Source: Chlorobiota bacterium (GTDB lineage: Bacteria; Bacteroidota; Ignavibacteria; Kapaibacteriales; UBA961). Taken from it: 54,725 bases of DNA. The stretch is taken from contig BJGZ01000015.1 in the NCBI GenBank assembly GCA_014191195.1, positions 1 to 54,725 of the forward strand, given 5' to 3'. The notes below the pieces were generated by a model. That model searched no databases. It saw nothing but the letters and a program-made list of their open reading frames with translations, and was not told where the DNA came from. Below, in pieces: positions 4,169 to 42,587 of the stretch; within the stretch, counting starts at the first letter, position 1; every line of letters begins with the position of its first letter. The position numbers and the translations under genes are program-made.

Positions 4169-7100
4169 TTAGCGTATAACGCTGACTGCTTTTGTGATTG
4201 TTCCATGTTGAGTTATTATTTGTACATAATACACTCCAGAAGGAACATCTTGTAAATTCAATGAGAATTCATAGAAACCTGGTAATTGCTGTTGATTGTT
4301 GATGAAAGAACTAGCAATAGTACCAGAAGCATTATATACTTTAATACTTACAATTTCTGATGTTTTTAATTCATATTGAACTTTAGCAATATCATTAGTT
4401 GGATTTGGAGAAATGCTCATTCCCATTGAAGTAGAATACAGAACATCTTCTATATTACTTGGTTTTTGCGCTTTATAGTCTGTATTGATTGGATCATAAT
4501 TAGACCAAGGTAAATCCCATCTGTTTAAGCCCATTGCGCCACGATATGCAACTTTTTCGAAGAATGCATCATCTATAGCAACTACACCTGATTTTGTAAA
4601 AGATGCACCTGTTAAAACAGGCGAGCCAGCTTTAGGAGCAGGATTAAAAGTTGGATCTTCTATAAATGGATTTTGTAAAGAAGCAGCAGAAGTACTACCT
4701 TTTTCTAAAGAATTACCAAATTCTGCCTTTGAAATCCATGTTGGATCGATTCCTGCAGGAGGAGTACCACCTGCTAAATTCAACCATGTACCTTTTATAC
4801 CAAACCAGCTATTATTGCGTACTTGTAAAGAATCTACAAGTGCAGCATTCATAGTTGCTACTTGTGCAATTTCTATACCGCGAGGCCAACCAATAAACAA
4901 TGAGTTCATGATAGACTGACGTGAATTTCTACGAATTTGTGCAGCCGCACCAAAACGAGCATTTGGAGTAGCAGAAGTATCTGCTAATGGCCCTATAGAA
5001 GTTACATTAGAAAAGATTGCAGATGTAAATGGAGTGTTAAATGTTGCAGTAGCATCATTATCTGATTCAAACGCTTGTGAGGTAGATTGGTCTGCTCTGG
5101 TTTTAAATCTTTGGCTAACAGCAAATTGAACTCTGCCACTAAAACCATTATCTGTATCAAAGTCATCATCTAAAGCACCAGTAACAATTAAATGTTTTGC
5201 ATCTACAGAACCACCAAACCATTCAATACCATCATCATTTGCATAACTAACTTGAATATTATCCATAGAAGTACCACGGCCCACAGCACCAAGTGTTAAA
5301 CCGTTTAGTTCTTGATTTGGTTGAAGAGCAATACCACCAAATTCTATACGGACATATTGCAATGAACCACTATTATCATTATCAGCTGTTCCACCATAGT
5401 ACCATTTAGTTTTATCATTTGAATTAGCTACTCCACCTTCTTGGGCAGCTTCACCACCAGGATTATTAATGCGTGCTTTACCATAGATTAATAAACCGCC
5501 CCAATCACCAGCACGACGTTGTCCTGGAGGTGCAGATGAAGTCATAATGATAGGTAGTGTAGCAGTACCATTAGCAATAATTTTCGCACCACGATTAATA
5601 ACAAGAGCGGAATTATTACCTACTGTATCACCAAGAATAATTGTCCCTGCTTGAATTGTTAATGTAGCAGGTTCAACTACATGAACAAAGCCTCGAAGAC
5701 CATATATCTTCGTATTGGTTAAAAACACATTAGATGTTATAGTACCAGTTAAAACAGAATCTACTTGTGAAGGACTTGGTCTATCAATCTTGAAAGGATT
5801 TATTGATACAGCTGTTTTAGTAGTATCACTTAGATTAACCATGCGAATATAGCCTGTTGAAGTTTCGATAGAAGGTGCTCTAAATCCACCGATGAATCTA
5901 CCTCTACGAATAGTACCACTTGCATTACTATCTATTATGCTTGTTGCACCTGGTAAATCTATCCATGGTCCAGTTGCAGAAGTTCCAAATTGGAATTTAT
6001 GTTTAGTAGCAAGAGTAGTTGTTGTGGTATCCCACACGATATCATAGGATGAACCTGCTCTATATGTTTCATTAGCAGCAGCACCTGGAGATAATAATTT
6101 CATTGCTACAACTGGCAATTGGGCTTTATAATTGGTATTAATTGGGTCATAATTTGCCCATGGTAAATCCCAACGTTTAGTATCCATTGCGCCACGATAT
6201 GCAACTTTTTCGAAGAATGAATCATCGATAGCAACTACACCAGATTTTGTAAATGAAGCGCCAGTAAGAACAGGTGAATTAGATTTAGCAACTGGATTAA
6301 AAGAAATATCTTCTGCGAAAATATTTTCTAGACCACAACTTGCAGGATTTCCTTTATCTAGAACATTATTAAACTCTGTTTTAGCAATCCAATTAGCATC
6401 CATTCCTGTTGGTGGTGTTCCACCAGCAAGATTTAGCCATGTATTTTTGACACCATACCAACTATTATTTCTGATTTGAACTGTATCTGAATATGCAGCA
6501 ATCATTGTATTTGCCTGAGCAATTTCAATACCGCGAGGCCAACCAACAAAAACGGAATTGAAAATAGATTGATGCGTATTTCTGCGAATTTGCGCCGCTG
6601 CACCAAATCGTGCATTTGGAACTTGAGCAGTATCTGATAATGGGCCAATAGACGTTACATTAGAGAATATTGCGCTCGTGTAAGGTTGATTATATGTAGA
6701 AGTTGCATCATTATCAGATTCAAATGTTTGAGAAGTAGATTGATCTGCTCTGGTTTTAAAACGTTGAGCAATTGCGAATTGTACTCTACCACTATATCCA
6801 TTATCTGTATCAAAATCATCATCAAGAGCATTTGTTACGATTAAATGTTTAGCATCAACAGTTCCACCGAACCATTCAATACCATCATCATTTGCATAGC
6901 TTGATTGCACATGATCGATAATTGTACCACGACCAACACCACCTAAAGTAATACCATTAAGTTCTTGATTTGGCTGTAAAGCTATACCACCAAATTCAAC
7001 TCGAACATAACGAAGAATACCACTATTATCGTCATCTAAACCACCGCCATAGTACCATTTTGTCTTATCATTTGCATTAGCAACACCACCCTCTTGAGCG

Positions 7101-10100
7101 GCTTCACTTCCAGGATTATTGATGCGCGCTTTACCATAGATAAGTAATCCACCCCAATCGCCAGAACGACGTTGTCCTGCAGGAGCAGATGATGTCATAA
7201 CGATTGGCAGATTTGGTTTTCCATCAGCAATAATCTTAGCACCACGATTAATAACTAAAGCAGAATTAACACCTACTGTATCACCAACTATGATTGTTCC
7301 CGCTTGAATTGTTAATACTGCTGGTGACACTACATGTACATAGCCTCTTAAACCATATATTTTAGTATTTGACAAGTACACATTCTTTGTAAGTGTTCCA
7401 CTTAGTACAGAATCTACATTTGTTGGTGATGGTCTATCAATTGTTGTAGGATTAACAGATACAGTAAATAAAGCACTATCTTTTAAGCTAATCATTCTTA
7501 TATAACCAGTTGTAGTTTCTATACTTGGCGCACGGAAACCTCCAACAAAATTGCCTCTTTTTATTTGACTGCTAACATTACTATCTTTTACAGATGTAGC
7601 ACCAACCAAATCTATCCATGGACCAGTTTTAGAAGTACCAAACTGGAATTTATAGGATTGTCCTAAAACAGTTGTTGTGGTATCATATTTTAGATCATAA
7701 TTTATACCTGCTCTGTATACTTCATTTATTGTTCCACCAGGTGAAGTAATCTTAGGAGCAATTGCAGATTGAGCTTTATAAACTGCATTTACTGGATCAT
7801 AATTTGCCCAAGGAATATCCCATCTATTTGCATCCATTGCACCACGAAAAGCTACTTTATCAAAAAATGGATCATCTATAGCAACAACTGATGTTTTTGT
7901 AAATGAAGCACCAGAAATCAATGGAGAATTAGCCACAATAGACGGATTAAATGTTGCATCATAAGAAAAAGGATTTTGTATTCCTGAGGCAATAATATTA
8001 GCTTTTTCTAAGAAATTATTTGATCCTGCTTTAGCTAACCAATTAGCATCCATTCCTGCTGGTGGAGTACCACTAGCAAGATTTAACCATGTAGATTTTA
8101 CACCAAACCATGAAGAGTTTTTAACTTGTAGAGAATCTACATTTGCGGCAGCCATTGTATTAGCTTGTGCAATTTCCATTCCTCTTGGCCAGCCAATAAA
8201 TGCTGAATTAAAAATAGACAAACGAGAATTTCTACGGATTTGTGCTGCTGCACCAAAACGTGCATTTGGTGTTTGGGAAGTATCAGATAGTGGACCTATT
8301 GCAGTTACATTGGAGAATATAGCTGTGGTATAAGGTGTATTATAGGTTGCAGTTGCATCATTATCTGATTCAAATGCTTGTGAAGTAGATTGATCTGCTT
8401 TTGTACTAAATCTTTGGCTTATAGCATATTGAATACGACCACTAAAGCCATTATCAGTATCAAAATCATCATCTAAAGAACCAGTTACTATTAGATGTTT
8501 GGCATCTACAGAACCACCAAACCATTCAATACCATCATCATTAGCATAACTTGATTGTACATAATCAATAGTGGTTCCGCGGCCTACACCACCCATAGTA
8601 ATTCCATTTAATTCTTGATTTGGCTGCAATGCAATACCACCAAATTCAACACGAACATATTTTAGAACACCACTATTATCATTAAAATCAGTTCCGCCAT
8701 AATACCATTTTGTTTTATCATTAATATTAGCAACTCCACCTTCTTGAGCAGCTTCGCCACCAGGATTATTGATGAGAGCTTTACCATAGATAAGTAAACC
8801 ACCCCAATCACCAGCACGACGTTGTCCTGGAGGTGCTGAAGATGTCATAATAATTGGCAAAGAAGCAGTACCATTTGCGATAATTTTTGCACCACGATTA
8901 ATCACTAATGCAGAATTTACTCCTACTGTATCACCAACTATGATAGTTCCTGCTTGAATTGTTAGAATGGCAGGTTCTACAACATGTACATATCCACTTA
9001 AACCATAAATTTTAGTATTAGAAAGATACATATTAGTAGAAATTGTACCTTTAATAATTGAGTCAACTTTTGTTGGAATTGGTCTTTCGATAGTAAATGG
9101 TAAACTTGTTACACCAGCTAAAACTGTATCAGCAATATTGACCATTCTTAAATAGCCAGTAGTAGTAGATAAAGAAGGAGCTCTGAATCCACCAATGAAT
9201 AAACCACGTTTTACTGTGCTACTTACATTACTATCTTTAACTGCAGTTGCCCCAACCAAATCTATCCATGGTCCTTTATTAGAAGTACCGTATTGAAATT
9301 TATAGACTTGTCCCAATTTAGTAGTTAATGTATCATATTTTATGTCAGAAGAAACACCTGCTCTATATACTTCACCAGATGCTATTCCAATATTTGTAAT
9401 TTTTGGTGAAGGAGGTAATTGAGCTTTATATTCTGTATTAATAGGATCATAATTTGCCCATGGATAATCCCAGCGTGTTGTTCCCATTGCTCCACGATAA
9501 TCCACTTTATCAAAAAATGCATCATCTATAGCAATGACTCCATTTTTAACAAATGTTGATCCTGTTAATAATGGTGATGTTGCTTGAAGTGCAGGACTAA
9601 AAGTACTACCATCTGCAAAAGGATTTTCTAACATTGCAGCAGTTGTGCTTCCTTTATCTGAATTATTACTAAATGCTGATTTAGAAATCCAGTTAATATC
9701 CATACCACTTGGAGGTGTACCACCTGCAAGATTTAACCAAGTTGTTTTATAGCCATACCATGCAGTATTTCTGATATGAACAGAATCTACATTTGCTGCA
9801 TTCATTGTATTTGTTTGAGCAATTTCTATACCTCTTGGCCAACCAAGAAATACTGAATTATAAATTGCTTGTCGTGAATTTCTACGTATTTGAGCACCCG
9901 CACCAAATCTTGCATTTGGAATTGCGGATGTATCATAAAGTGGACCAATAGCAGTTACATTTGAAAATATTGCGCTTGTTAAAGGCTGATTAAATGTTGC
10001 TGTAGCATCATTATCTGATTCAAATGTTTGAGAGGTAGATTGATCTGCTCTGCTTACTGATCTTTGGCTAATAGCGTATTGAATACGGCCACTAAAACCA

Positions 10101-11122
10101 TTATCAGTATCAAAATCATCATCTAATGCTGAATTAGAAATAATATGTTTTGCATCTACAGAACCACCGAACCATTCAAAACCGTCATCATTTGCATAAC
10201 TTGATTGTACATAATCAATTGTGGTTCCGCGGCCAACTCCACCCATTGTAATACCATTCAATTCTTGATTTGGCTGTAATGCAATACCACCAAATTCAAC
10301 ACGAACATATTTTAGAACGCCACTATTATCATTAAAGTCAGTTCCGCCATAATACCATTTTGTTTTATCATTAATATCAGCTACTCCGCCCTCTTGAGCA
10401 GCTTCTCCACCAGGATTATTAATTTGCGATTTACCATAAATAAGTAAACCACCCCAATCGCCAGAACGGCGTTGTCCTGGTGAGGCTGATGATGTCATGA
10501 TAATCGGTAAAGTAGGTGTTCCAATAGCGATAATTTTAGCACCACGATTAATCACTAATGCAGAATTAACACCAACAGTATCACCTACAATAACGGTACC
10601 TGCTTGTATTGTTAATGTAGCAGGAGAAACTACATGAACATATCCACGTAATCCATAAATCTTAGTATTCGATAAATAAACATTATTCGTAATTGTTCCT
10701 GATAGAATTGAATCAATTTTAGAAGGATTTGGTCTATCTACTGAAAAAGGTACTAGCGATACCCCTACTTTAGTAGTATCTGCTAAATTGATCATTCTGA
10801 TATAACCAGTTGAAGTTACAACTGAAGGACATCTGAATCCGCCATTAAATCTACCTCTTCTATTCGGAGTGCTAGCATTTGAATCCAAAACATTTGTTGC
10901 ACCAATGCAATCTGACCATGGCCCTAAAGCACTTGCTGCAAATTGAAATTTGAATCTTTGGCCTAGCAAAGTAGTTGTTGTGTCCCAGATTAGATCATAA
11001 GAAGTACCTGCTCTATAGCTTTCAAAAGCAGTACCACCTGGTGAGAGTAATTTAGGATTTTGAGCCATTGCTTCTACCGATAATCCGCAGATTATCAGAA
11101 ACAGTACAAACATTTTTTTCAT
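4169..11122 (-). CDS. Giant secreted four-repeat beta-helix-like protein with T9SS sorting domain
   Basis: The 2317-residue protein has a signal peptide (1-20, ending AMAQ), four consecutive ~550-residue units, and a T9SS type-A sorting domain over roughly the last 80 residues (SISPNPTNDIAKVQYELK ... GVYYVQI). Each unit has an Ig-like N-part (YRAG..YDL..DTTTT..G..FKFQF) followed by a probable right-handed parallel beta-helix (TLTIQAGT..VGDTVG, ALVINRGAKIIA, QRR.GDWGGLLIYGKA, QPNQELNG, ANDDG.EWFGG.VDAKH, DDDFDTDNG). Aspartate-rich loops suggest bound Ca2+ (inference). Single-unit relatives of ~450-550 aa are common in Bacteroidota and often sit beside a TonB receptor, as here (receptor 60 nt upstream, same strand). 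A surface or secreted partner for ligand capture is plausible, but no function is established. The fourfold architecture is unusual. Confidence 0.85.
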   Translation of the reverse strand: MKKMFVLFLIICGLSVEAMAQNPKLLSPGGTAFESYRAGTSYDLIWDTTTTLLGQRFKFQFAASALGPWSDCIGATNVLDSNASTPNRRGRFNGGFRCPSVVTSTGYIRMINLADTTKVGVSLVPFSVDRPNPSKIDSILSGTITNNVYLSNTKIYGLRGYVHVVSPATLTIQAGTVIVGDTVGVNSALVINRGAKIIAIGTPTLPIIMTSSASPGQRRSGDWGGLLIYGKSQINNPGGEAAQEGGVADINDKTKWYYGGTDFNDNSGVLKYVRVEFGGIALQPNQELNGITMGGVGRGTTIDYVQSSYANDDGFEWFGGSVDAKHIISNSALDDDFDTDNGFSGRIQYAISQRSVSRADQSTSQTFESDNDATATFNQPLTSAIFSNVTAIGPLYDTSAIPNARFGAGAQIRRNSRQAIYNSVFLGWPRGIEIAQTNTMNAANVDSVHIRNTAWYGYKTTWLNLAGGTPPSGMDINWISKSAFSNNSDKGSTTAAMLENPFADGSTFSPALQATSPLLTGSTFVKNGVIAIDDAFFDKVDYRGAMGTTRWDYPWANYDPINTEYKAQLPPSPKITNIGIASGEVYRAGVSSDIKYDTLTTKLGQVYKFQYGTSNKGPWIDLVGATAVKDSNVSSTVKRGLFIGGFRAPSLSTTTGYLRMVNIADTVLAGVTSLPFTIERPIPTKVDSIIKGTISTNMYLSNTKIYGLSGYVHVVEPAILTIQAGTIIVGDTVGVNSALVINRGAKIIANGTASLPIIMTSSAPPGQRRAGDWGGLLIYGKALINNPGGEAAQEGGVANINDKTKWYYGGTDFNDNSGVLKYVRVEFGGIALQPNQELNGITMGGVGRGTTIDYVQSSYANDDGIEWFGGSVDAKHLIVTGSLDDDFDTDNGFSGRIQYAISQRFSTKADQSTSQAFESDNDATATYNTPYTTAIFSNVTAIGPLSDTSQTPNARFGAAAQIRRNSRLSIFNSAFIGWPRGMEIAQANTMAAANVDSLQVKNSSWFGVKSTWLNLASGTPPAGMDANWLAKAGSNNFLEKANIIASGIQNPFSYDATFNPSIVANSPLISGASFTKTSVVAIDDPFFDKVAFRGAMDANRWDIPWANYDPVNAVYKAQSAIAPKITSPGGTINEVYRAGINYDLKYDTTTTVLGQSYKFQFGTSKTGPWIDLVGATSVKDSNVSSQIKRGNFVGGFRAPSIETTTGYIRMISLKDSALFTVSVNPTTIDRPSPTNVDSVLSGTLTKNVYLSNTKIYGLRGYVHVVSPAVLTIQAGTIIVGDTVGVNSALVINRGAKIIADGKPNLPIVMTSSAPAGQRRSGDWGGLLIYGKARINNPGSEAAQEGGVANANDKTKWYYGGGLDDDNSGILRYVRVEFGGIALQPNQELNGITLGGVGRGTIIDHVQSSYANDDGIEWFGGTVDAKHLIVTNALDDDFDTDNGYSGRVQFAIAQRFKTRADQSTSQTFESDNDATSTYNQPYTSAIFSNVTSIGPLSDTAQVPNARFGAAAQIRRNTHQSIFNSVFVGWPRGIEIAQANTMIAAYSDTVQIRNNSWYGVKNTWLNLAGGTPPTGMDANWIAKTEFNNVLDKGNPASCGLENIFAEDISFNPVAKSNSPVLTGASFTKSGVVAIDDSFFEKVAYRGAMDTKRWDLPWANYDPINTNYKAQLPVVAMKLLSPGAAANETYRAGSSYDIVWDTTTTTLATKHKFQFGTSATGPWIDLPGATSIIDSNASGTIRRGRFIGGFRAPSIETSTGYIRMVNLSDTTKTAVSINPFKIDRPSPSQVDSVLTGTITSNVFLTNTKIYGLRGFVHVVEPATLTIQAGTIILGDTVGNNSALVINRGAKIIANGTATLPIIMTSSAPPGQRRAGDWGGLLIYGKARINNPGGEAAQEGGVANSNDKTKWYYGGTADNDNSGSLQYVRIEFGGIALQPNQELNGLTLGAVGRGTSMDNIQVSYANDDGIEWFGGSVDAKHLIVTGALDDDFDTDNGFSGRVQFAVSQRFKTRADQSTSQAFESDNDATATFNTPFTSAIFSNVTSIGPLADTSATPNARFGAAAQIRRNSRQSIMNSLFIGWPRGIEIAQVATMNAALVDSLQVRNNSWFGIKGTWLNLAGGTPPAGIDPTWISKAEFGNSLEKGSTSAASLQNPFIEDPTFNPAPKAGSPVLTGASFTKSGVVAIDDAFFEKVAYRGAMGLNRWDLPWSNYDPINTDYKAQKPSNIEDVLYSTSMGMSISPNPTNDIAKVQYELKTSEIVSIKVYNASGTIASSFINNQQQLPGFYEFSLNLQDVPSGVYYVQIITQHGTITKAVSVIR
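4471..11065 (-). repeat. Four tandem ~1650-bp intragenic repeats
   Basis: Using the conserved YKAQ junction (ctttata on the plus strand) as a ruler, junctions fall at 4471, 6124, 7774 and 9424. This gives units U4 4471-6123 (1653 bp), U3 6124-7773 (1650 bp), U2 7774-9423 (1650 bp) and U1 9424 to about 11065. Almost no length drift has occurred. U1 and U2 are close to identical over long stretches (compare about 10200-10380 with 8560-8740), while U3 and U4 are more diverged. This pattern fits recent duplication or gene conversion between U1 and U2. Confidence 0.9.
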
Positions 11123-14399: not shown

Positions 14400-15128
14400 A
14401 TGGGACATGAAGTTACTTCGATTGCTGCCGGAAATTACGTAGCATTTACGTTTTTTATCGGTACTATGGCCATGATGGCTGCATCTGTATTTTTCTTTTT
14501 TGAATTGAGTACTACCTCATCAAAATGGAGAACTTCAGTGTTGGTGTCTGGAATTATTACATTTATAGCTGCAGTACATTATTATTATATGCGAAGCTAT
14601 AATTTAGAGACAGGCACTTCTCCTACATTCTTTAGATATGTAGATTGGTTGTTGACAGTTCCTTTAATGTGTGTTGAGTTTTATTTAATTACAAAGAAAG
14701 CAGGTGCAAAACTTAGCTTACTTTGGAAATTAATCGCAGCATCGGTATTCATGCTAGTTACCGGTTATATCGGTGAAGCTCTAAACGGTACCAATGAGTC
14801 AAGCTGGATTTGGGGTACAATTTCATCAATCGGATATGCCTATATTGTATGGCTTGTATGGTTTGGTGATGTAGCAAATCTTGCAAAATCAAGTTCCGCA
14901 GCTGTTGCTAAAGCAAATAGAACATTAGGCTGGTTTGTTTTAGTTGGTTGGGCAATATATCCTTTAGGATATATTTTAGGTACTAAAGGCGGTTTATTTG
15001 GTACTCCAATGGTAACAGATCCTGCAGCAGCTTCCTATGCTATGGATATAATTTATAATATTGGTGATGCTGTTAATAAAATTGGTTTTGGCTTAGTTAT
15101 CTATGCTTTAAGTAGAAGCGAAGAATAA
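14400..15128 (+). CDS. Light-driven proton-pump rhodopsin (proteorhodopsin/xanthorhodopsin type)
   Basis: A 242-residue, seven-helix type-1 microbial rhodopsin. Helix C reads RYVDWLLTVPLMCVE: R79, counter-ion and proton acceptor D82, T86 and proton donor E93, the DTE pattern of outward proton pumps. H60 in AAVHYYYMR corresponds to the proteorhodopsin histidine that pairs with the counter-ion. Helix G has D223 and Schiff-base lysine K227 (GDAVNKIGFG). M90 sits at the spectral-tuning site (105 in proteorhodopsin numbering) and predicts green absorption. G139 in WIWGTISS aligns with bacteriorhodopsin W138 and xanthorhodopsin G156, the glycine that opens a fenestration for a carotenoid antenna. 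It is transcribed alone, with its own terminator. No retinal- or carotenoid-synthesis gene is in the window. The pump call is strong; antenna binding is inference. Confidence 0.95.
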   Translation: MGHEVTSIAAGNYVAFTFFIGTMAMMAASVFFFFELSTTSSKWRTSVLVSGIITFIAAVHYYYMRSYNLETGTSPTFFRYVDWLLTVPLMCVEFYLITKKAGAKLSLLWKLIAASVFMLVTGYIGEALNGTNESSWIWGTISSIGYAYIVWLVWFGDVANLAKSSSAAVAKANRTLGWFVLVGWAIYPLGYILGTKGGLFGTPMVTDPAAASYAMDIIYNIGDAVNKIGFGLVIYALSRSEE

Positions 15129-16320: not shown

Positions 16321-16815
16321 CTAAAACTTTAGTGTTAATATTCCTGTAGTAGGATTGTAAGAAGAAGGAATTTCTCTTAGTGTTTGAGATGGTTGGCCAC
16401 TAATAACATTACCAAAAGATGTATCATCTGTAGAGTATGTAGCTTTCATTGGACAAGTTTCGCAGATTATCTGTTTGGAAATTGGATTTCCTAATTCTGG
16501 AGCTTTGGGTTTCTTTTCACAATTTTTGGGACAAGAGGCTGAAATACAACGATAAACGCCTTCGAATGTTTTTATGATAATTATTGGATCTCCATTATTA
16601 TTTGAACCATATGTTCTACGAAGGAATCCATCTACATTATTAAGTGCAGATTCATCCGTAACTTTAAGATCTACAGCATTGCTGGAAGGCTCCGATGTTG
16701 AAGAACATCCCGAAAGGCTAGCATTCAAAAGAATACTTCCTGTTGCTAAAGGAAATAAACCTAAAGCTTTTAGCACAATTCTTCTTTGATTTACATTAAG
16801 CAATTCTTTTTCCAT
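16321..16815 (-). CDS. Rieske-like Tat lipoprotein with a four/five-cysteine cluster site
   Basis: The 164-residue protein is a clear paralogue of the Rieske protein at 19143-19616. Both share the order RRxxxxK signal, lipobox, hydrophobic strand, LRRTYGSNNNGDPIIIIKT, cluster loops, and a C-terminal YNPTTGIL strand. The signal QRRIVLKALG is Tat-like and LSGC (C37) is a lipobox. In place of the Rieske ligands C-x-H...C-x-x-H it has CPKNC (C95, C99; H replaced by K97) and CETC (C118, C121; H replaced by Cys), plus C90. It may hold an all-cysteine [2Fe-2S] cluster or zinc, or have lost the cofactor. It is the last gene of a minus-strand cluster, 92 nt after the cyclase. Family relation sure, cofactor unknown. 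Confidence 0.75.
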   Translation of the reverse strand: MEKELLNVNQRRIVLKALGLFPLATGSILLNASLSGCSSTSEPSSNAVDLKVTDESALNNVDGFLRRTYGSNNNGDPIIIIKTFEGVYRCISASCPKNCEKKPKAPELGNPISKQIICETCPMKATYSTDDTSFGNVISGQPSQTLREIPSSYNPTTGILTLKF

Positions 16816-16907: not shown

Positions 16908-19130
16908 TTATTCTTTAAATAATGTTAAAAAATAAGTATGCATTTTACCCTTACCTTTTATGTCAATTAAGCCTCTTTGATGAATAGAAATGATACCAAA
17001 AGAAAATTCTTTTGTTTCGGGTATTTCTTCATCAATAGAAATTGAACATAATTCCCTTAGAAATGGGTCACTTACATGTACCTGTTCTCTTTGGCCATGT
17101 GATTCCATTCTTGAGGCAGTATTAACTGTATCTCCCCAGAGATCATATGTAAATTTATGTCCTCCGATTACACCTGCAATTACAGATCCACAATGAAGCC
17201 CTACTCTTACTTTAATTTCTTGTTGTCCGGGAAACTTATGTTTTTTTGCAGTATCAATAGCTTTAAAAGCAAATTCGGTTATTAATTCAGTATGATTTTC
17301 TTTTGCAGACGGAATTCCACATGCTGCCATATAGGCATCACCCAGAGTTTTTATTTTCTCTATTCCTAATTCTAAAGCTAATGCATCAAAATCAATAAAT
17401 AAATCATTTAATGTTCCAACAACTTCCTCAGGATTTAAATGTATTACTATTTTTGTAAACTCAACTATATCTACAAAAATGATACTTACATGTTCATGTT
17501 TTTCTGCTATCGTAGTTTCGCCTGATACGATTCTATTTGCTATTTCTATTGGTAAAATATCATGTAAGATTTTTTCTTTTTCTTGAAATCGAATTATTGT
17601 TTCCTTATTACTTCTTTCTATTTTTTCTATTTGCCTAATTAAATCTAATTCCACTGCTTGTTTTTTTGCAGATTCATTGTGTACTTGCTTTTCTAACTCA
17701 TAAAATTCTTTAAAATGAAGATATGCTTTATTTATATTTCCATGGTTTTCATATAATGTAGAAAGATATTTATGCAATTCATATTGTTGTTGCTTGATTT
17801 TATATTTTTTTTGAATGGCTAGTGCTTTGAGTAAATATGATTCTGCTTTTTCAATGGAATAATGTTCAAATTCTGTGTGTGAATATAATTCTCCAATTTT
17901 CCCCAACCAACTAGCATATCCTACCTCTATACCCAATTCCTTGTCTAGCATCATTGCTTTTTGATAATGATCCAGAGCATTATTCCATTGTTCTAATCGT
18001 AAATAGACATCTCCAATATTTCCAGTCATTCTTGCAATTTGGGCTTTAATTTCAATTTTAACAGCAATTTCTAAAGTTCTTTTAAAATACCTTAACGCTT
18101 GATTAAAATCATCCATTTCATAATAAATTGATCCAAGTGTTCCATTTACAGTTGCTTCTAATTCTAATTGCGGATTATTTAATAGAATTTCTAAAGCCTG
18201 ATTATTATACAATATTGCTTTTTCAAATTCATTCAGATCTTTGTAGATCTCCCCGATATTAGAAAGATGTCTAATTACACCGAAGATATTACCATGTTCT
18301 TCATCAATACTTAATGCTTTTCTGTAATATTCTAATGCTTTTTGCAAATCTGATAATGAACTATAGACAACTCCGATATTACCATAGTGTTTAGATAAAT
18401 TATTTCGATTTCCAAGTTCTTCATCTATTTGTAAAGCTTTATTATAATATTCCAATGCTTTAGGAAAATTAGAAATATTACTGTAAATCACTCCAATATT
18501 ACCATTTATATCTGCAATTCTATATGGATTTCCAAGTTCTACTTGAAGTTCTAGAGCTAGCTCATAGTAAGTAAGTGCTTTAGGATAATTAGACATAGTA
18601 ACGTACGATATTCCAATATTTACCATGCAATTAGCCATAATTGGCTTGTTTTGAAGCTTTTTTGCTAGTTTAAGTCCTTCTTTATAAAATATCAGAGCCT
18701 TTTTTATTTCGCTTAATGCATTATAAACCACTCCTAAATTTATATTATATTTTGCAATGCTTAAGTAATCGTCGTTCTCTTTTGAATAACTTAATGCTTC
18801 TAATAAATAGATTATTGATTCATGATAACATTTCTTTTGTATTAATATTGCCCCTTCATTTCCCTGAATCATAGACTTGCATTTTGCTGATAGATCTTTA
18901 TGTTTATCAATATATGACATTGCAATAATGGAATATTTTTCGGCTTCAAGTATATCAGCCATTCTCCAATATGCCTGAGATAAAAACACATATAATTGGG
19001 CTTTAATTTCAATATTGATATCTATATCATTGTGCAATATTTTCAAACAATATTCTTCTGCTTCTTCAAATTTTCCAAATTGAAGTAATGATTCTACAAT
19101 TCCCAAATACTCTGCTTCTAATAGTAACAT
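16908..19130 (-). CDS. TPR-repeat class III adenylate cyclase
   Basis: A 740-residue cytoplasmic protein with no signal peptide. Residues ~1-480 hold about eleven tetratricopeptide repeats (recurring NIGVVYSSLSDLQKALEYY-type units), a short coiled coil covers ~485-520, and a class III nucleotidyl cyclase domain spans ~522-740. The catalytic set is complete: metal ligands D554 (FVDIVEF) and D598 (TLGDAYM), adenine-selecting K594 (EKIKT) and D663 (YDLWGD), and transition-state N670 and R674 (NTASRMES). It should make cAMP from ATP, with the TPR part sensing a protein or peptide partner. The gene starts 12 nt after the Rieske lipoprotein gene and is followed by its cysteine-rich paralogue, a probable operon. 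Confidence 0.9.
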   Translation of the reverse strand: MLLLEAEYLGIVESLLQFGKFEEAEEYCLKILHNDIDINIEIKAQLYVFLSQAYWRMADILEAEKYSIIAMSYIDKHKDLSAKCKSMIQGNEGAILIQKKCYHESIIYLLEALSYSKENDDYLSIAKYNINLGVVYNALSEIKKALIFYKEGLKLAKKLQNKPIMANCMVNIGISYVTMSNYPKALTYYELALELQVELGNPYRIADINGNIGVIYSNISNFPKALEYYNKALQIDEELGNRNNLSKHYGNIGVVYSSLSDLQKALEYYRKALSIDEEHGNIFGVIRHLSNIGEIYKDLNEFEKAILYNNQALEILLNNPQLELEATVNGTLGSIYYEMDDFNQALRYFKRTLEIAVKIEIKAQIARMTGNIGDVYLRLEQWNNALDHYQKAMMLDKELGIEVGYASWLGKIGELYSHTEFEHYSIEKAESYLLKALAIQKKYKIKQQQYELHKYLSTLYENHGNINKAYLHFKEFYELEKQVHNESAKKQAVELDLIRQIEKIERSNKETIIRFQEKEKILHDILPIEIANRIVSGETTIAEKHEHVSIIFVDIVEFTKIVIHLNPEEVVGTLNDLFIDFDALALELGIEKIKTLGDAYMAACGIPSAKENHTELITEFAFKAIDTAKKHKFPGQQEIKVRVGLHCGSVIAGVIGGHKFTYDLWGDTVNTASRMESHGQREQVHVSDPFLRELCSISIDEEIPETKEFSFGIISIHQRGLIDIKGKGKMHTYFLTLFKE

Positions 19131-19142
19131 ATAGTAATTACT

Positions 19143-19616
19143 TTATATTGAAATAGAGATAATTCCTGTTGATGAATTATAGGTAGTTATGAATTCTTGT
19201 AAACTACTTGTACTTTCACCACCAATATTCTGAGCAAAATTTCCTTCTGAGGTGCCAAATTGAGCACCATGTTTAGAGCATATTGCTTTGCCACCAGATG
19301 GCGATGCTACAGAGCCTCCTTCATGTGGACAATATGATGACATTGTCCTAAATTTATCTTGCGCTGTTCTTATAACTATTACAGGCAATCCATTATTATT
19401 ATTTCCAAAAGTTCTACGGATTGAACCTCCTATACTTTGTAAGCTTGATTCATTAGCTAATGTTATAGTAATTGTTTCACCCGATAATGTAGAAGTTGGA
19501 GAGTCTGAACACCCTTGGCAAAGTGCCACAATTGCAGCACCTGAAACTACTGGCAAAATCCCAATAGTTTTCATAAAATTTCTTCGATTTACAATTGAAG
19601 ATTCTTTCGTTTTCAT
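19143..19616 (-). CDS. Rieske [2Fe-2S] Tat lipoprotein
   Basis: A 157-residue Rieske-fold protein with intact cluster ligands: C96 and H98 in YCPHEGG, C113 and H116 in CSKHGAQF, and the glycine-rich Pro-loop (SPSGGKA) between them. The N-terminus VNRRNFMKTIG is a twin-arginine signal, expected for a cofactor-bearing export protein, and CQGC at 33-36 is a lipobox, so it is probably a membrane-anchored electron carrier. Isolated small Rieske lipoproteins of this kind occur in Bacteroidota and may donate or accept electrons for a quinol or oxygenase system; none is present here. It lies 38 nt after the metalloprotease and 12 nt before the cyclase. Confidence 0.85.
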   Translation of the reverse strand: MKTKESSIVNRRNFMKTIGILPVVSGAAIVALCQGCSDSPTSTLSGETITITLANESSLQSIGGSIRRTFGNNNNGLPVIVIRTAQDKFRTMSSYCPHEGGSVASPSGGKAICSKHGAQFGTSEGNFAQNIGGESTSSLQEFITTYNSSTGIISISI

Positions 19617-19654: not shown

Positions 19655-21790
19655 TTACTGTGATTTAATCAATGTATGAATAAACTGTTTCATTCCATAT
19701 CTATTGTGAATTACAATACAATATACTCCTGAATTGATATCTACAGTTGATAATTCTACAGTATTTCCATTAATACTAGTTGATAATATTCTTTCTCCTG
19801 TTATACTATACACAACGATATTTCCACCGATACATTCTGAATCATGAATCTTAATAGTACAATTTCCATTTGTAGGATTGGGATATATATCAAATGATAT
19901 GTGATCTTTTGTTTCAGTTACAGATAATGGAACATCACATGGAGCACCAGCAATGATTGCTTCATTTGGCTTTTCATTGTATTGATATTCTAATAATCTA
20001 CAGCCATTTTTTGATGATACTGAAACTTTCATCCATCCATAATAGAAATTATTTCCAGCCTGCGTTCTAAAGCCAATATATCCTTGTTTATCATCTAAAT
20101 CTGTATATAATGATGAGTATAAAATCCCTTGATTGCCACCTGCTCTCCATAAACTCGAAGATCCAATTTCTGTTCCAGGTTCTACAAATACTATATTGTC
20201 ATTGGATTGATTTTGAGTAATAATTGCTCTACCATAATTCTCTAAATAATACACTGAGTCTTTACGTAGCAATCCATAAAATCTATTGATTGGCCCAGAT
20301 AATTCGAATGAATTCCATGATGTATCTTTATTTGCTACTGCATAAACTTGCTCACAGGTTTTTTTCCATGGATCTAAAAATGTTAGTGAAAATGTTTTTT
20401 CTCTATTTTTTATTGATTCTGCATCTCCATTTGTAAAAGCTGGGTCTTTTAGGATAAAAGACAATTGAACAGAATTATTTTGATTATGATATACTGCTTT
20501 GCCTTTAAAAGAGCATGTTATTATCTCTCCAGATTCATCTACTTCTAATTGTTCTGTTAAACCTTGTGGAACTCCTTGTAGTATATAATGAATACCTGGC
20601 TCCAGATTTCTTCCTGCTTCTGTAAATTTCACTCCTGCTGATGCATATATTTTAATTGGATTTCCACCTAAAGATCCATCATTTATTTCACTTTCTTTTA
20701 CAAAGTTCTTAGAATAGCTTATAAATGGATATTCATTAACACATGGATTATTTGAATTATAAGATAATAATCCTGTTGCTACAGCATTATCATATTGCCA
20801 TAATGATTTTCTGGATGGAGTTAATAAAGCTGCTTCCATTCTTTTATTCTGATCAGCTGTAAAATTTTTATAACAAGAGGTATTATAATCCATATAATTT
20901 TCTCCATTTATCAATCCACCGCATTGAATTGCTTCGCATCCTTTACCAGCTCCATCTGTTGGTGGGGTATCGGCACAAAAGTCTCCAGCACCGGTACAGC
21001 TATTTCCTTCAAAAGTATGACGTAAATCCAGATAATGTCCACATTCATGAGTAAAGGTTTGATTGAATTCAAGATAATTGTATGAAGATCCACCTTTTCC
21101 TAAATACACATAATTATATACCATTCTGGCTAATCTATTATCACTTTGCCAAGTGGAAGGATAAAAACAATAACCAGAATTATTTACAGCATTATTTGCA
21201 AAAAGATCGTTTTGAACATAGACATTAAAATATTTATAATTATCCCATGCACATGATTGAATTTGCTTATCCCACGATGTACCACTATTACCAAAGCCTG
21301 GTTGCTTATCTTGATAATAGACAATGCCTTCGGTTATATTTCCCTCTGGGTCAATCAATGCTCTGGCAAAACGAATAGAAGTATAAGACTTTATAGAGTC
21401 GAATGCTTTATTGACTGTTTCGAAGTCTTCATTAGTACCTGCAAATGTTTTATTTAAGTCATCAATAGCAAAATCTAATTGAGATACTGGAACACCTGAT
21501 TTTCCGGCAGGATGAAAAACATGAAATACAATTGGTATAATTTTAACACAAGAAGTATCAGGCATTGATTGCTTAGAAACATTATTTTTTGCCAGATATT
21601 CTTGTATTATGGTCAATGTATTATTGTAAGAAGGATCTTTTCTTTTTTGTTCTTCTAAATGATTAATTTCTTCTTGAAGCCCTTTGTCTGGAGATTGAAT
21701 ACCTCCAAAAATTGGCATTGGTAGTTTTACCTGTGCATACAGCATACCAACACTGCAAAGTGCCGAACACATATATATTAAATATTTCAT
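19655..21790 (-). CDS. Secreted M43 (cytophagalysin-like) metalloprotease with T9SS sorting domain
   Basis: The 711-residue secreted protease has a signal peptide (1-20, MLYAQ) and a short propeptide-like segment. The metzincin catalytic domain has the zinc motif HECGHYLDLRH (H248, E249, H252, H258), the cysteine-rich CADTPPTD loop and the Met-turn NYMDY (M300), as in the pappalysin/cytophagalysin family M43. A beta-rich region follows, and the T9SS type-A tail begins around residue 630 (FDIYPNPTNGNCTIKI). It is predicted to degrade extracellular proteins. It is the first gene of the minus-strand cluster with the Rieske and cyclase genes, though a direct functional link is unclear. Confidence 0.9.
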   Translation of the reverse strand: MKYLIYMCSALCSVGMLYAQVKLPMPIFGGIQSPDKGLQEEINHLEEQKRKDPSYNNTLTIIQEYLAKNNVSKQSMPDTSCVKIIPIVFHVFHPAGKSGVPVSQLDFAIDDLNKTFAGTNEDFETVNKAFDSIKSYTSIRFARALIDPEGNITEGIVYYQDKQPGFGNSGTSWDKQIQSCAWDNYKYFNVYVQNDLFANNAVNNSGYCFYPSTWQSDNRLARMVYNYVYLGKGGSSYNYLEFNQTFTHECGHYLDLRHTFEGNSCTGAGDFCADTPPTDGAGKGCEAIQCGGLINGENYMDYNTSCYKNFTADQNKRMEAALLTPSRKSLWQYDNAVATGLLSYNSNNPCVNEYPFISYSKNFVKESEINDGSLGGNPIKIYASAGVKFTEAGRNLEPGIHYILQGVPQGLTEQLEVDESGEIITCSFKGKAVYHNQNNSVQLSFILKDPAFTNGDAESIKNREKTFSLTFLDPWKKTCEQVYAVANKDTSWNSFELSGPINRFYGLLRKDSVYYLENYGRAIITQNQSNDNIVFVEPGTEIGSSSLWRAGGNQGILYSSLYTDLDDKQGYIGFRTQAGNNFYYGWMKVSVSSKNGCRLLEYQYNEKPNEAIIAGAPCDVPLSVTETKDHISFDIYPNPTNGNCTIKIHDSECIGGNIVVYSITGERILSTSINGNTVELSTVDINSGVYCIVIHNRYGMKQFIHTLIKSQ

Positions 21791-41873: not shown

Positions 41874-42587
41874 ATGAATTTCTTTATTCTGTTATTTATT
41901 TCTTTATTGTTTTTTACAAGCAATATAAATATATCTCTTGCTCAGAACTCTAGTAAAAAACCGACACTAATATATGTATTCGATCCTTTATGTGGATGGT
42001 GTTATGGGTTTTCTCCAGTAATTTCCAAAATTGCTTCATCCTATAAAGATGTACTATCAATTGAGACCGTGTGTGGTGGTATGATCACTGACGATCAGAT
42101 AGGTTTTATCAAACAAAAAGCTCCTTTCTTAAAAAAGGCAATAGCATTAGTTACTCAACATACAGGGGCAAAATTTAGCCGATATTTTATCGATACTGTG
42201 ATGCTTGATTCTTCTAGAATTATGACTTCTGTACAAAGTTCTATTGCAATAATGATTTGCAAAGAAATGAAGCCTGAATCCTTATTATCATTTATAGAAG
42301 AATTACATAAATACATATATGTAAAAGGAATAGACATGGCTAAAGATGAATCATATCTAGAATTAGCAAAACAATTTTTAATTCCTGAAAAAGAATTTTT
42401 ATTAAAGATGAAAAATATAAAATATAAAAATGCAGCAATTAAAGAATTTAATAAAGCAGAACAATTAGGGATTTCATCATTCCCTGCTTTATTGTTAAAC
42501 AATAATGGAAAAGTTACAGTCATTTCTAATGGTTATAAATCATTTCAAGAAATAGAATTGTCTTTACAATTAGAAATGAAAGAATAA
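41874..42587 (+). CDS. Exported DsbA-family thiol:disulfide oxidoreductase
   Basis: A 237-residue thioredoxin-fold protein of the DsbA/FrnE type. It has a signal peptide (1-24, ISLAQ), the active site DPLCGWCYGF (C40-G-W-C43) and the cis-proline loop SSFPALLLN near 205. The helical insertion between them fits the DsbA fold. The protein should act in the periplasm in disulfide formation or reduction of exported proteins. No DsbB is nearby. It is divergent, at 13 nt, from the DUF4149-like gene, so promoter elements must overlap coding sequence. Confidence 0.88.
   Translation: MNFFILLFISLLFFTSNINISLAQNSSKKPTLIYVFDPLCGWCYGFSPVISKIASSYKDVLSIETVCGGMITDDQIGFIKQKAPFLKKAIALVTQHTGAKFSRYFIDTVMLDSSRIMTSVQSSIAIMICKEMKPESLLSFIEELHKYIYVKGIDMAKDESYLELAKQFLIPEKEFLLKMKNIKYKNAAIKEFNKAEQLGISSFPALLLNNNGKVTVISNGYKSFQEIELSLQLEMKE

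Follow-up and report, generated by a model that had tools for sequence, protein, structure and literature searches.

A conserved Rieske-fold lipoprotein with cysteines, and no histidine, in its cluster loops

The locus and its genes

The window, that is, the whole 54,725-nucleotide stretch of DNA analysed here (contig BJGZ01000015.1 of a Chlorobiota bacterium of the order Kapaibacteriales), encodes at positions 16321-16815 of the reverse strand a Rieske-fold lipoprotein that we call the Cys variant. Its reading frame is intact, with an ATG start and 164 codons followed by a stop. The protein carries a twin-arginine motif (QRRIVLK, with R11R12) and a lipobox (LSGC37), and beyond the lipobox cysteine its mature domain has five cysteines (C90, C95, C99, C118, and C121) and no histidine. 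The C-x-H ... C-x2-H ligands of a Rieske cluster are missing, and CPKNC and CETC stand in their place, as an earlier note on this DNA had read, counting four loop cysteines plus C90; all of them can be read directly from the 164-residue frame. With coordinates counted from the ORF start at 16815, the codons of loop 1 (C95-P-K-N-C99-E-K-K102) lie at 16510-16533 and those of loop 2 (I116-I-C118-E-T-C121-P-M-K-A125) at 16441-16470, both on the reverse strand.

The earlier note also pointed to a paralogue 2.3 kb away that retains C-x-H / C-x-x-H. This is P0002, a canonical Rieske lipoprotein encoded at 19143-19616 (reverse strand), with the motifs CPH and CSKH and a match to PF00355 (1.6e-06). Between the two Rieske-type genes, genus-wide where contigs allow, lies a gene for a protein with a class III adenylate/guanylate cyclase domain (PF00211) behind TPR repeats (16908-19130, reverse strand). 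Upstream on the same strand, an M43 (pappalysin-type) protease with a T9SS sorting tail is encoded at 19655-21790. The order M43 protease, canonical Rieske, TPR-cyclase, Cys variant, on one strand and with short gaps or overlaps, is found in the window and in loci L020 and L022; in the remaining genomes of the genus, the parts that can be reached on short contigs agree with the order Rieske, TPR-cyclase, Cys variant. Given this spacing and synteny, we infer an operon. In this genus a TPR-class III cyclase is co-encoded with two genes for exported Rieske-type (envelope redox) lipoproteins; beside the canonical Rieske genes of sister genera, no TPR-cyclase was found within the roughly 1.5 kb fetched.

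Other genes of the window also deserve mention. A microbial rhodopsin gene (14400-15128, forward strand; PF01036, 4.1e-41) lies between genes for an M42 peptidase and a TonB receptor. In L020 and L022 the corresponding junction has gaps of about 90-130 bases, too short for a rhodopsin gene, so it was either gained in the genome of the window or lost in the other two. At 4169-11122 (reverse strand) is encoded a protein of 2317 residues with four long near-repeats and a T9SS sorting tail.

The genome encodes TatC (1.2e-65) and, together with the invariant R11R12 and C37, this gives the Cys variant the sequence features of a Tat lipoprotein. It is thus predicted to be exported by Tat and lipid-anchored, folding first in the cytoplasm; the invariant twin arginine and the presence of TatC are compatible with export in a folded and perhaps metallated state. 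DsbA-family proteins are also encoded in the genome, which makes disulfides in the Cys variant possible. One of them, within the window (41874-42587, forward strand), has a CGWC motif, an apparent signal peptide, and a PF01323 match. Searches of the genome revealed neither VKOR nor a rubredoxin-family protein.

Kinship, distribution, and selection

The Cys variant and P0002 are 29% identical over nearly their full length (BLASTP, E 2e-25). The homology to canonical relatives does not come from the signal peptide, since the last 125 residues alone align with them at 99.6-99.7% probability in hhalign. In maximum-likelihood trees, the Cys variants come together as a single, fully supported group whose stem is very long, at 1.0-1.3 changes per column. 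When the loop columns are left out, this group falls with the family's own Rieske lipoproteins at a support of 99/98. The three lines of evidence agree with the Rieske homology proposed in the earlier note. The tree does not separate a position of the Cys variant within the Rieske lipoproteins of the family from one as their sister (p-AU 0.416).

Family profiles pass over this kinship. The PF00355 model matches P0002 and not the Cys variant, and no Pfam or NCBIfam family was matched by the Cys variant, even when it was searched with all its orthologues, in line with the statement of the earlier note that no described family is known to show this exact pattern. Searches with the Cys variant against PHROGs and against PDB sequences returned nothing meaningful, while the PDB sequence search with the canonical set gave 59 matches, nearly all of them Rieske proteins.

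Orthologues are present in five more genomes within the genus, with about 61-65% identity to the protein of the window; the public records bearing them are titled Ignavibacteria, Bacteroidota, or Candidatus Kapaibacterium metagenome-assembled genomes. One genome of the seven in the genus (G012) gave no match, but as it is 85% complete, it may still carry the gene. We scanned with a profile of the Cys variant 123 genomes of the order and samples of the class (391 genomes) and of the phylum (395 genomes), these sets overlapping. Among the matches with loops read, which are those whose locus was fetched and thus leave out weaker matches, no Cys variant was seen outside the genus, and every one retains both histidines. 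Further Rieske domains detected in the genome of the window, namely P0002, L003, and three others, are all canonical. Two profile scans and one loop pattern revealed no relative of the Cys variant in viral contigs. As judged from these sequences, the Cys variant arose once, by duplication of a Rieske lipoprotein, in one genus of uncultured Kapaibacteria-type bacteria.

Within the genus, the protein is strongly constrained. The earlier note had proposed cysteine conservation as a check, and the protein passes it: all five mature cysteines, as well as the lipobox cysteine and the twin arginine (in keeping with the Tat export and lipid anchor named there), are invariant in six of six genomes, and no mature domain among them contains a histidine. 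Invariance reaches 100% for residues 95-102 and 116-125, to be compared with 49-56% in segments 38-87, 103-113, and 128-164. Where dS is measurable, dN/dS is mostly 0.04-0.06, and these ratios are rough because synonymous sites are saturated in most of the distant pairs. For the same genome pair, dN is 0.088 for the Cys variant and 0.216 for its canonical paralogue. At the divergence of the orthologues, invariance of the cysteines by itself would arise by chance with a probability of about 0.07, and the weight of the argument therefore comes from the conservation of whole loops, the systematic absence of histidines from the mature domain, and the low dN/dS. The Cys variant is thus a real, conserved gene under strong purifying selection. 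Since this selection follows the loss of the histidines, it is very likely a working protein that is not a Rieske [2Fe-2S] protein, and this lineage-specific form has very probably taken a new function.

The two loops and the lost histidines

The spacing of the cysteines is C-x3-C in loop 1 and C-x2-C in loop 2. The position of the first cluster histidine is occupied by Lys97 under either reading of the alignment, and a cysteine (C99) follows two residues later. The second loop can be read in two ways. Counted from C118, C121 sits at the position of the second Rieske histidine (+3). Counted back from the conserved A125, C121 lies two residues earlier and the histidine position is taken by Met123. 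The HH alignment with wider relatives adopts the reading based on A125, and aligns C99 and C121 with the cysteines that form the disulfide in respiratory-type Rieske proteins. This reading also fits a canonical relative with an elongated second loop (L034, CDQPGCGHGS), in which the disulfide cysteine is placed like C121 and Met123 falls at the place of the histidine. C99 and C121 may thus be the counterparts of the disulfide-forming cysteines in respiratory Rieske proteins.

The earlier note described both histidines as replaced and cysteines as added. The loss of both histidines and the conservation of extra cysteines hold, but the first histidine position is a lysine. Because both loops carry insertions and Lys97 sits at the first position, a replacement of histidine by cysteine is literally true at most for C121. 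Histidines were thus lost and cysteines are present, and the loop alignments do not imply a one-for-one exchange.

Two canonical proteins, L032 and L034 (from genomes G133 and G202), have elongated second loops (CSFADNKCGHEA and CDQPGCGHGS, respectively) that resemble a step toward the CETC loop.

AlphaFold2 models had a mean pLDDT of 49 when built on the six orthologues and of 48 when built on ten rows that included paralogues but not the homologues known through genome searches alone. Such confidence is too low to provide usable cysteine distances or metal geometry. Searched with these models, Foldseek returned Rieske proteins for all of its eight best matches, each at E 0.07 or worse, and VIA-align gave a top Z of 3.8, for the Rieske protein 9rk4.

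What the cysteines may hold

By its composition, the Cys variant is excluded from binding a Rieske [2Fe-2S] cluster with two histidine ligands. The notion that an ordinary Rieske protein had been misread can be rejected in the same way, since the mature domain offers no histidine as a ligand. In place of the usual cluster the protein probably has another kind of metal site, or disulfides.

The reading that we rank highest, tentatively and at somewhat less than an even chance, is a mononuclear tetrathiolate site binding zinc or rubredoxin-like iron. The four cysteines that it would use, C95, C99, C118, and C121, are conserved and distributed over two loops. According to a review (PMC2946596), Rieske loops have a geometry similar to that of rubredoxin and zinc ribbons, and in the archaeal Rieske-type protein ARF of S. 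solfataricus the mutant H44I/K45C/H64C formed a mononuclear rubredoxin-like Fe(Cys)4 site, which the figure legend of the review describes as a mononuclear (Fe/Zn) center (PMC2946596). This precedent is the reason for our ranking because the natural loops follow the same logic: in loop 1 the histidine gave way to a lysine and a cysteine comes two residues later, one residue more than in the mutant. Against a mononuclear site count the C-x3-C spacing of loop 1, where rubredoxin and the engineered ARF have C-x2-C, and the possible homology of C99 and C121 with Rieske disulfide cysteines, and the search of the genome, which found no rubredoxin-family protein, does not help the case for iron.

The possible homology with disulfide cysteines leads to a second explanation, which we regard as rather unlikely though worth serious attention: a Rieske fold that lost both the cluster and the histidines, with disulfides C99-C121 and C95-C118 formed in the envelope and C90 left free. 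The Cys variant would then be a structural, binding, or thiol-redox partner and not an electron carrier. The hhalign placement of C99 on the loop-1 and C121 on the loop-2 disulfide cysteine, the similar placement in the elongated loop of L034, and the DsbA-family proteins of the genome all speak for it. The nearest canonical relatives within the family, however, lack the disulfide cysteines. The Cys variant could have kept these cysteines if it is sister to those relatives, and the AU test leaves the placement either way. Moreover, the twin arginine was kept, though a protein without cofactor would not need Tat, and no VKOR was found in the genome.

An all-cysteine [2Fe-2S] cluster, in which C95 and C118 would bind one iron and C99 (or C90) and C121 the other, seems doubtful; its potential would be far below that of a Rieske cluster. 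There are four or five invariant cysteines available for it, the longer rebuilt loops could bring cysteines closer than histidines need to be, and the H64C mutation alone gave ARF a low-potential cluster held by three cysteines and one histidine (PMC2946596). Yet ARF H44C/H64C largely failed at cluster assembly (PMC2946596), the AlphaFold2 models are of no use here, and in the open-access literature we found neither a natural precedent for such a cluster nor a description of a natural all-cysteine Rieske protein. The earlier note had offered an all-cysteine [2Fe-2S] or a zinc site; the ARF precedent favours the mononuclear site and disfavours the cluster (PMC2946596). Finally, a decaying gene or an assembly error mimicking a change of cofactor would fit the very long stem and the lost Pfam match, but we rejected it as extremely improbable because six separately assembled genomes agree without frame breaks, dN/dS is low, and the loops are invariant.

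If the mononuclear site is correct, a duplicated Rieske lipoprotein would have lost both cluster histidines and gained or kept extra cysteines, and a single metal ion held between C95, C99, C118, and C121 would have replaced the Rieske cluster, with C90 as a spare ligand or tuning residue. The metal would be zinc, with a structural role, or iron, as a rubredoxin-like one-electron centre. The Cys variant would then work in the cell envelope alongside the canonical Rieske lipoprotein encoded with it; with iron it would be a second electron carrier, and with zinc a structural or partner module. In broader terms, we lean slightly towards the view that, in one bacterial genus, duplication led once to the natural conversion of the Rieske scaffold of an exported lipoprotein into an all-cysteine metal site of some kind (rubredoxin-like iron, zinc, or [2Fe-2S]), which would make the Cys variant the natural equivalent of an engineered protein.

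Should the four cysteines bind a metal, evolution would have achieved what had so far been reached by design, the change of a His2Cys2 Rieske site to a tetrathiolate one in the same fold; with the canonical paralogue still encoded two genes away, the pair would be a ready natural experiment on the way in which the type of ligand and the spacing of the loops set cluster type and potential. If they form disulfides, the protein is a clear example of a Rieske fold retained after the loss of its cofactor. The Cys variant also shows that profile-based annotation overlooks such proteins.

Among known systems, the canonical Rieske [2Fe-2S] lipoproteins of the phylum (PF00355, such as P0002) share homology with the Cys variant along nearly its full length, as well as the twin arginine and the lipobox, and their two cluster cysteines align with C95 and C118. 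The Cys variant differs from them by the absence of both cluster histidines, by three more cysteines, and by escaping detection by Pfam; relative to P0002, its loop 1 is longer by six residues and its loop 2 by two. Respiratory-type Rieske proteins with the loop disulfide motif (L003, L053-L060) have an extra cysteine per loop at about the places of C99 and C121 but, unlike the Cys variant, retain the two histidines together with the [2Fe-2S] cluster motif. The engineered ARF H44I/K45C/H64C shares with it a Rieske scaffold in which the first histidine became a non-ligand with a cysteine soon after, and two cysteines per loop; it is man-made, has the spacing C-x2-C / C-x2-C, and its metal has been shown, whereas the Cys variant has C-x3-C / C-x2-C and a metal that is putative. 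The knuckles of rubredoxins and zinc ribbons likewise present four cysteines on two loops, but we found no sequence relation between them and the Cys variant, which has a different overall fold and C-x3-C in loop 1.
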